From positions 22,091,682 through 22,155,681 of the forward strand of contig CM065704.1 in the NCBI GenBank assembly GCA_017654935.2: DNA of 64,000 nucleotides, written 5' to 3'. Of the stretch, positions 9,559-63,399 are shown piece after piece. This stretch comes from Phymorhynchus buccinoides. Lineage: Eukaryota; Mollusca; Gastropoda; Neogastropoda; Raphitomidae. Every line of letters starts with the position of its first letter. Within the stretch, counting starts at the first letter, position 1. The notes under the pieces were generated by a model. That model saw only the letters and a list, made by a program, of their open reading frames with translations, did no database searches and was not told the origin of the DNA. Made by a program: the position numbers and the translations under genes.

Positions 9559-12500
9559 GTCAGTTTTTCTTTTATTTTCTTTCATTTTTTTCCATTTTAT
9601 TTTATTCTTTTTTCTTTCTTATCCTCATTTTGTTAAATAATACTAGAAGGGTGATGGTGCGTTTAGGCAATTACCCTTCGGTCCTGCTTAAAGGTCTGTG
9701 TACACGTTAACATTATTCACAAAATATAGATATTTCCCATGGCAACACAGTGTTGGGCCACTCATAATATCACTTACAATTCACTATGTTGCCATGGGGA
9801 AATAGTGATATTTTGTGAATATTACTAACGTGTACAAAGACCTAGAGGGTTAATATTGTTTGTGAGCAGGCATGGTTGACTGTAACTGGTATCAAAGCAT
9901 TTTCTGTGATTTTGTTCACAAGTTTCAATAACTATAGATATTGTTTTCCATTGGGGTGAAGGATGGACAGTGCTAATTGAGTGAAGGTTGTGTACATGCA
10001 CATTCTAGTCATAGAAACCAGCAAGCTCATTAGAAATAACTTACAGGATAATGATGTTGTAAAACATGTTGAAAAAAAAGTGTTGTACAAAACTACAAAT
10101 CTTTGAAATCTTTACATTTCATAAAGTTATCCATTGAAGTTTTTCTATTTCTGCGATTTTTTCTCTTCTTTCTTAAATCCTTAAAAGCAGCTTTCAAGGA
10201 ATGAAGGCTCTCTAAAATGCATGCATGCGCACACACACACACACACAGTCACACACACACACACACACACACACACACACACACACACACACACACACAC
10301 ACACACACACACACACACACACACACACACACACACACACACATACATTTAAATTTGTAGAAGTCAATTCCATTTTCCATTATGATACAGGGTGTCAAGA
10401 CTTGTTGAAACATGGCGCATTTGTGCATAGTGGATGGCTGAGACGGCAGAGTTTGAGAAACAAGTTCAAGATATTCTCATGTAAGTTTTTGTTTGCTTCA
10501 GATTTTTACTCTTAATTTATAATAGCAAGACATATGTCTTGATGGATTAATCTTTATCTGTCAGAGCCATCAATACTCAGTAGGCTGACTCCCTCCCCTA
10601 GGGGAATTCTTTATCCTATTTTGCTCAGACTTGTATCAATCGATGTGCCTGTATGCTCGCAGTCGTGTGTGTGTGTGTGCGTGTGCGTGCGTGTGTGAAG
10701 AGGTGGGACATGTGTGGGTATAAATGTGTATGTACACGTGTATGTGTGTGTGTTGGTGTATGTGTAGGTGTGCGTATGAGAGAAAGAGAGAATCTGAGGG
10801 AGAGACTGATAGATGATGATGTAATCTGATTTTGTTACCATTTTTCCCCCTCTCTTATATTGGTTTTCCATCGATGTGCATGCTTTCGTTGTTGTTGGAT
10901 TGTGTCTTGTGCAAAACCAAAACGATTTCCTTTGTATTATGATGCACTGGCTGATTAAATAATCTTGAATCTTTAGAGATTATAATTAAAAGCTCGCTAA
11001 AAAAAAAATCATCATTTGTTTGAAAAACAAGTTTTTAGATTTATTATCTTCAGAGCTTATACTTATAGAGCTTGCTTAATAAAAAAAAAAAAAAAAAAAA
11101 TGAAAGTATGATTTATTTGAGAAACAAGTGCAAAGTATTCTCATGTAAGTTTTCATTTCCTTCAGACTTTGTCTCAGCTTATCTTAGCAAGAAATAATTA
11201 TGTGTTGATGGATCTTTGGAGATTAAAGAGCTGAAAGAAAGCAGTAAAATTAGTTTGTGAAAGAGCTTAGTTATAGAGCTTGCTTTTCAAAAACACTTGT
11301 GCAATGATACAGCAGATGTAGCTATGTATCTTTTGACATTTGTGTGGGATGGATGCATTATGCACACACAAACTGCATGAGAATTGATTTTCTACAGCAA
11401 TGGAAAATCTGTTTTAAAATACAGTTTTGTCTTTTGAATGTGACTGTCAAAATAGGAGGCATTGCTGTTAGTGTTGCAGCCTTGAGAAAAAGGCCGTGTA
11501 CACACATAAGCGGATATTCCGTGCGGAAACCTGTGCCCAATCTATAAATAAGTGAAACAAAGAAGGGAAAAGATTTGCGCACATGTCCGAATTTACCCTA
11601 TATGCATAAACTTTTATCCTTCTTTCTTCCACTCAGGGTTTTCCGTACGGAACTTACGCATCTAATGTGAACCCGGCCTTAGTGTACGAAGTAGATGTGA
11701 CTGTTGTCAAATTGTCTTTTGCTCAGGGCCTCAAGTCTACGTGATCATCTCGAATGGCTGTGTGTATTGCTATGGCAACGAGGTGGCCAAGAAGCCGGCA
11801 TCCACTTTCTCTTTGTACGGCTATGACAAGTGAGTATGCGTCATCATGTGTCGGTCAGTGTGGTTGGATCTGCTCAAGCCTGGCAGGCTTTTCACTGTCA
11901 CAGTGCAATTCTACTTGTTGTTTGCCAGCCTCGAAGCGAAGCTGGTAATGCTATCAGTGATGTCTGTTTGTTTTTGGCTATGTTAACAGTAATTGTTTTC
12001 TTGCGCATAAGTAGTTACTAAGTTAGGATATCTGGGCCAAATTTGAAAATGAAGGTCATTGGTCAAAGGTCAAGGTCACTTGAGCAGAAAATGTGCCTCG
12101 TGGCTGGTCTGGTGATATACCAGTTTATCTTGAATTTTGGTTTAAACAAAAATTTATTACAGATTTGTTATAGGTCTTCTTACATAAGTTTTTTTGTTTT
12201 TTTCATCGATTGAAAGACTTTATTGATTGGTTGATTGATTGATTTATATGTAAGGCTTATTGTAGGCCATCTTACTTTATTATTTATTTTCTATTTATTT
12301 ATTCACTTTACTTTGTCTCTTCAGAGTGTATCGGGCCGGAGAGGTGGTCTCGAAGGAGGCGACCTGGACGTTCAAGCTGGTGCACGTGAACGCAGACTAC
12401 CGGTCCTACCTGTTCTCGGCCTCCTCCGAGAAAGAGATGATCCACTGGATGGCCCTGTTCAAACAGGAGATGCTCAGAGCCAATGGAAAGCTGCCCAGGT

Positions 12501-63399: not shown

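Follow-up and report, generated by a model that had tools for sequence, protein, structure and literature searches.

Five exon-intron borders in two genes of the gastropod Phymorhynchus buccinoides have been copied, across the splice site, into adjacent intron sequence, and at four of them the copies form tandem arrays resembling the mirages of lancelets. Mirage-like arrays in a mollusc are thus real. The analysis covered one window of 64,000 nucleotides (contig CM065704.1). We consider it likely that the arrays are molluscan mirages, that is, ordinary tandem duplications whose segment spanned a splice site by chance and which were tolerated since the outermost native site works.

For each of the 36 borders of three genes, a 40-mer spanning the border was aligned to the intron at that border. 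Five borders scored 28-40 (of 40), and the next best score was 14. The five are donor 10480 and acceptor 15206 on the plus strand and donors 63311, 58454, and 57073 on the minus strand, named below by their exons (A2, A5, C1, C4, and C5, respectively). In an earlier run, performed with slightly different 40-mers on 36 borders, none of the random window 40-mers (up to 200 per intron) scored as high as these five, which places the duplications themselves far beyond chance. The exon at 18409-18515 was part of the final border scan and is absent from the random-40-mer, control-point, and first family runs. The scan recovered exactly the five borders that the earlier note had listed, an acceptor and four donors distributed over two genes; the note's total of about 22 exons in those genes should read 18 mapped exons. 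Its statement that ordinary minisatellites are free of exon sequence was also borne out, as 10 other arrays compared with 21 exons gave a best match of E = 0.15. The copies run unbroken over exon, splice site, and intron. Copied exon sequence amounts to 11, 24, 29, and 59 bp at the donors; at the acceptor it ranges from 22 to about 42 bp.

The 21 exons mapped in the window belong to gene A (12 exons, plus strand), gene B (three exons, plus strand), and gene C (six exons, minus strand); the coordinates of the relevant features are collected in Table 1. Gene A is an SH3BP2-like adaptor gene. Pfam found a PH domain in the draft protein, and relatives that align over the full length of the gene A protein carry PH and SH2 domains. 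The hits include Nucella lapillus (P0008, 78% over 60% of the query), Littorina saxatilis, Babylonia areolata, and Pomacea canaliculata. Gene A exons were placed by tblastn with gastropod SH3BP2-like proteins in combination with splice reading. One open frame spans exons 1-7, and a second spans exons 8-12 and runs to the stop. The two halves are out of phase with each other, which makes it probable that the map lacks a short linker exon in the interval from 18515 to 21339; a search of this region for it found none. Joining the exons of gene B, or those of gene C, gives one continuous open frame. Gene B is small, has no Pfam match, and by eye appears to have a signal-peptide-like start. Gene C contains Ephrin_rec_like repeats (Pfam) and, by reading, one putative membrane span. 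Residues 2-123 of its joined protein match 122 chain residues of a solved mastigoneme-like protein with equal length on both sides, and this match crosses the junctions C1-C2, C2-C3, and C3-C4. The homologue search for gene C yielded 12 candidates, none at E 1e-5; Pfam and the solved chains were the sole basis on which conservation of its exon ends was judged. When joined at the native sites, the exons give conserved proteins (gene A compared with its relatives, gene C with the solved chain), and we infer from the sequences that the native splice sites are the ones used.

Table 1. Duplicated borders, arrays, and exons in the window
Feature	Coordinates	Strand	Basis or remark
Gene A exon 2, PH domain start, duplicated donor 10480	10391..10480	+	tblastn, splice reading
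A2 source stretch: 29 bp of exon + donor + 67 bp of intron	10452..10547	+	BLAST self match
Lone non-tandem copy of the A2 border, in the next intron	11116..11213	+	BLAST self match
A5 array, 98/104-bp units, two blocks (about 13205-13813 and 14080-15227)	13205..15227	+	TRF, copy listing, translations, identities
Gene A exon 5, native acceptor = last copy of the array	15206..15369	+	tblastn, phase
Gene B, three exons	41686..46883	+	No duplicated border
Gene C last exon: remainder of putative membrane span, short tail, stop	55698..55852	-	Splice reading, phase
C5 array, 101-113-bp units, 4 copies including native	56699..57131	-	TRF, copy listing, identities
Gene C exon C5, membrane-proximal part + start of putative membrane span	57073..57241	-	Splice reading, phase
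C4 array, 98/104-bp units, 3 copies including native	58178..58464	-	TRF, copy listing, identities
Gene C exon C4	58454..58569	-	Splice reading, phase, solved-chain match
C1 array, mostly 74-bp units (spacings 65-78), 15 copies including native	62220..63334	-	TRF, copy listing, identities
Gene C exon C1, native donor = first copy of the array	63311..63399	-	Phase, solved-chain match

Tandem arrays are present at four of the five borders, namely acceptor 15206 and donors 63311, 58454, and 57073, and the extra copies number 16 at A5 (17 with a degraded one), 14 at C1, two at C4, and three at C5. At A5 the unit consists of the acceptor and 22 bp of exon, and the array terminates in the real border. 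The 16 upstream copies are at least 72% identical, the degraded copy lies at 13343, and the outermost copy (13217) retains about 42 bp of exon A5. Mean identities at A5 are 86.3-88.1% for ten central copies, 70-83% for six outer copies, and 68% for the exon copy, the pattern of minisatellite turnover with outer copies less alike. The C1 unit comprises about 24 bp of exon and the donor CTG/GTGAGC. Its copies give a mixed picture, with a mean identity of 86.8% for the outermost copy, 84.9% for an inner copy beside a short unit, and 96.5% for the exon copy, which is no outlier. Two main unit types, TGCGCTCCT and TGTGCACCT, occur in the C1 array (62298-63333, minus strand). By eye, both read C-A-P in the exon frame, and their two differences would thus be silent. 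The C4 unit contains only 11 bp of exon, followed by the donor CCC/GTGAGT, and the C5 unit 59 bp of exon, the donor CAG/GTGATG, and a GAT-rich intron part. At A2, the claim of tandem copies did not hold. This border has a single copy, 79% identical over 100 columns and 664 bp downstream of its source, and no minisatellite; as a single non-tandem copy it was therefore not classed as a mirage. A look-alike of the A2 border at 12165 (67%) lies in a different intron and was dismissed as chance.

A name for this pattern exists, contrary to what the earlier note had supposed. Tandem repeats across exon-intron boundaries are called mirages in the lancelet genes for Adh3 and the globins BflGb6 and BflGb9 (PMC3087553) and are also reported for lancelet troponin C and PGBD5 (PMC3902484); these and the other sources below are cited for the excerpts available. 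According to PMC3087553, 5' and 3' boundaries can both be duplicated, the units measure 10-160 bp, array length is variable, and splicing is regular as far as RT-PCR and Adh3 data suggest; the mechanism by which the arrays originate is called unclear there. The snail arrays share with the described lancelet mirages a unit of part exon, splice site, and part intron, the occurrence at both border types (tandem donors, n = 3; tandem acceptor, n = 1), and, at A5, minisatellite-like turnover. A tandem unit spanning the exon-intron boundary is found at A5, C1, C4, and C5 and not at A2. They differ from the lancelet cases as described in occurring in a mollusc, in having up to 17 extra copies, in the density of five cases in 64 kb, and in the single non-tandem copy at A2; for lancelets, length variation and RT-PCR are on record, whereas the snail evidence is the DNA sequence of one haplotype. 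Canestro et al. 2002 is reportedly a further paper on lancelet mirages.

Related structures are known from other organisms. Internal tandem repeats occur at exon-intron boundaries in human segmental duplications (PMC2812944). Like the snail arrays these are boundary minisatellites, there able to alter splicing, but the available text deals with them as repeats that vary between recent paralogues and whose outcome is intron formation. In a potato RdRp gene, an intron was gained by a tandem duplication across an intron-exon boundary (PMC4974935). The copying of splice signals by a border-crossing duplication is common to both cases; a new intron arose in potato, whereas no new exon or intron is evident in the snail. 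The abalone TSSK1-like gene has a polymorphic 27-bp intronic minisatellite, likewise in a gastropod, and the excerpt does not state that it spans a border (PMC6905558). For earthworm metallothionein, exon-4 duplications are mentioned as absent from transcripts. The excerpts on chicken MUC2, abalone TSSK1-like, and earthworm metallothionein describe intronic or exonic repeats and no border-spanning array. No molluscan border-spanning array was recognized in a partial literature search, and an earlier print record is possible. The present arrays carry a little-noticed lancelet curiosity into the molluscs, with one case that keeps "fossil" exon residues in its intron copies.

In the explanation that we prefer, short duplications with units of about 74-113 bp would have copied segments that straddled a splice site by chance, and minisatellite-type expansion would have followed in four cases. 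Duplication of a donor-spanning segment would give the order exon end, intron start, exon end, intron start, with the full native exon before the first donor; with an acceptor-spanning segment, the last acceptor would stay native. If the outermost copy (first donor or last acceptor) is the one spliced, the mRNA would be unchanged, and border-spanning duplications would consequently be about as tolerated as intronic ones. A duplication wholly within an exon would lengthen the coding sequence and would mostly be purged, so that any exon-derived tandem copies persisting in an intron would be expected to include a splice site. The extra sites would be by-products with no protein-saving role. The copied segments end at no fixed distance from the splice site, a pattern more in line with random tandem duplication than with breakage at the splice site. 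Local repetition is common in these genes, with 25% of mid-intron test points having a copy in the same intron.

The main competing explanation is that border DNA itself promotes duplication, for example through co-transcriptional R-loops, replication stalling, or the composition step between exon and intron, so that border arrays would arise more frequently than other arrays. Two null models were applied to this question, and they gave different answers. By position, 5/36 borders (13.9%) have a copy compared with 902/3602 mid-intron points (25.0%) or, outside the border-derived arrays, 403/3035 (13.3%); intron 18516-21338, in which an unmapped exon probably lies, was treated as one intron in these counts, and mid-intron points of low complexity were excluded (240 in the control-point run, an uncounted number in the final run). 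With the earlier exon list, matches were obtained for 15/435 exon-internal 40-mers, all of which touch four of the five duplicated stretches and none of which is at C4, and for 130/1272 intergenic points. Within this one window the border rate is no higher than that of the mid-intron points, the outcome that the earlier note had named, for the whole genome, as speaking against its proposal. For the family null, each array was reduced to a single unit, which was then placed randomly within the three genes. Using all sequence, 5/11 families include a border compared with 0.78 expected (P 0.0001), and after removal of microsatellites 5/11 compared with 0.84 expected (P 0.0004). With arrays only, the count is 4/10 (P 0.003); with A2 omitted and C4 scored as a miss, it is 3/10 (P 0.02-0.03). 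A first family run with fewer exons had a similar outcome. The family list was made by hand from the TRF, random-40-mer, and control-point results: microsatellites were omitted, 16 isolated clusters of one or two points were discarded as noise, two 21-bp arrays were merged into one family, and three A5 clusters were merged into another.

For a claim of seeding, the family null is the fairer of the two, and if it is right, pure coincidence is a poor fit (5/11 compared with 0.78-0.84 expected). The excess is suggestive, being a post hoc result from one window and 11 hand-listed families, and it may be mimicked if old duplications stay recognizable for longer where a conserved exon anchors them. 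The recurrence of mirages in at least four lancelet genes, as far as the excerpts go, also favors promotion by the border (PMC3087553, PMC3902484). A weak lead in the same direction comes from the relatives P0020 and P0021, whose predicted sequence upstream of exon 4 holds a motif resembling the acceptor-spanning residues (YLPSCCRI against YLPCCCRV in P0020), with shuffle fractions of 0 and 0.04 of 500, respectively; this comparison was made at the protein level, and a border array in these relatives is possible. The match of P0022 to the same residues (shuffle fraction 0.002) stops short of crossing the acceptor. Against promotion stand the position-level rates and the copied stretches themselves, which end anywhere from 11 to 59 bp inside the exon. 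The suggestion that splice-site DNA seeds duplication was thus partly supported, by the exon-border origin of the copies, best seen at A5, and by the per-family excess, but not by the position-level rates or by the variable reach into the exon. Taken together, we regard promotion by border DNA as rather unlikely. We hold the same doubt about its broader form, in which exon borders would be true hotspots of minisatellite birth both in lancelets and in the lineage of this snail, with a genome-wide excess and a duplication mechanism tied to transcription or splicing in several animal lineages. If the family excess held genome-wide, the origin of border repeats and of some new introns would become a countable question.

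The coding consequences of the extra sites were assessed by extending each exon to every spare site and translating the result. None of the 36 spare sites keeps the reading frame (0/20 donors and 0/16 acceptors; 14 donors at C1, two at C4, three at C5, one at A2, and 16 acceptors at A5). At C1, all 14 spare donors run into a stop after CAPGEHSDPLCPV. For A2 and A5 the translation extended to exon 3 and exon 5 only, the stop being reached first. The human gene IFI6 has a donor-carrying minisatellite (1995 work cited in PMC4526556) and, like the snail genes, repeat units with donor sites at an exon end. In the excerpt on IFI6, two downstream repeats are reported as used, with three mRNAs as the result, whereas any tested spare site of the snail would break the frame; translatable mRNAs from downstream repeat donors are not predicted here, with 0/20 spare donors in frame (PMC4526556). 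The spare sites are therefore no protein-saving backups, and a role as regulatory decoys is still compatible with the result. Such decoy or poison splice sites, which would lower or regulate expression, could account for the many copies with intact donor or acceptor letters and for the early stop reached from every site tested. Early stops are expected from intron sequence anyway, however, array homogeneity accounts for the intact letters without selection, and the lancelet mirages are reported, in the part of that text available, not to disturb regular splicing in RT-PCR (PMC3087553). We consider a decoy function improbable. That copies are kept as a buffer against loss of the native site, as the earlier note had proposed in view of a spare site, would likewise agree with the intact letters in many copies, but it is contradicted by the failure of every spare site to open to the native end, and it can be set aside. 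The copies look like tolerated leftovers, not working spares. They suggest that introns can accommodate many near-identical splice sites next to the real one, and they offer a natural test set for site choice by the spliceosome.

The direction of copying was read from residues at the A5 border. Of 22 relatives, seven have QGDG at the exon start, one EGDG, and two PADG; the 12 with no such motif include several fragments that lack the region. After the motif, the outermost A5 copy reads GKSSD, and in the other 16 copies KSF or RSF precedes D, V, or H. The corresponding residues are GRSVD in the present exon, GRSFD in Nucella, and GKSSE in relative P0001. The copies thus keep residues of the relatives that the present exon has lost, which indicates that the intron copies were taken from the exon, and copying at A5 would predate the last changes in the exon. 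Among the five borders, this direction from exon to array appears well established for A5 only. In gene C the direction is suggested by how well the native junctions fit known domains, a weaker argument than that at A5. The reverse order, with a minisatellite in the intron as the source of the splice site at a shifted exon edge, draws on the exact adjoining of copies and exon at A5 and C1, but the A5 exon start is common to 8/22 relatives and the C1/C2 junction falls inside the Ephrin_rec_like match; it is very improbable overall and, at A5, was rejected on the shared exon start and the old residues in the copies. Copy numbers of tandem arrays are often misassembled, but since the copies differ from one another (mean identities of 68-88% at A5, 79% at A2), the duplications are real even if copy numbers may be inexact, and an assembly artefact of expanded or collapsed repeats is scarcely credible.

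Several other repeats were observed in the window. Intron 2 of gene B (plus strand) holds two arrays of one 21-bp unit (43852-44013 and 45498-46445), the consensus of which contains a donor-like AAG/GTAAAT without exon sequence. This array was considered as a further border array and was rejected for having no exon match. Two gene A introns share a dispersed repeat (16944-17189 and 22903-23149, 76% alike). Inverted copies of a dispersed repeat were found at 8875-9160 (plus strand) and about 15400-15620 (minus strand), with very similar open translations, and one of this pair sits just past the donor of exon A5. The stretches at about 12590-12650 and 62150-62240 are, by eye, apparent inverted copies of one dispersed repeat. 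Two open frames on the minus strand, 2388-3050 and 52316-52660, resemble the reverse-transcriptase ends of transposons. Rfam gave no match in the window at the gathering threshold; the segment 21425-21440 (plus strand), ATCGCTTCTCGGCCTT, resembles the start of U2 snRNA. At 53729-53939 there is a 52-bp repeat whose consensus unit is, by eye, nearly palindromic.
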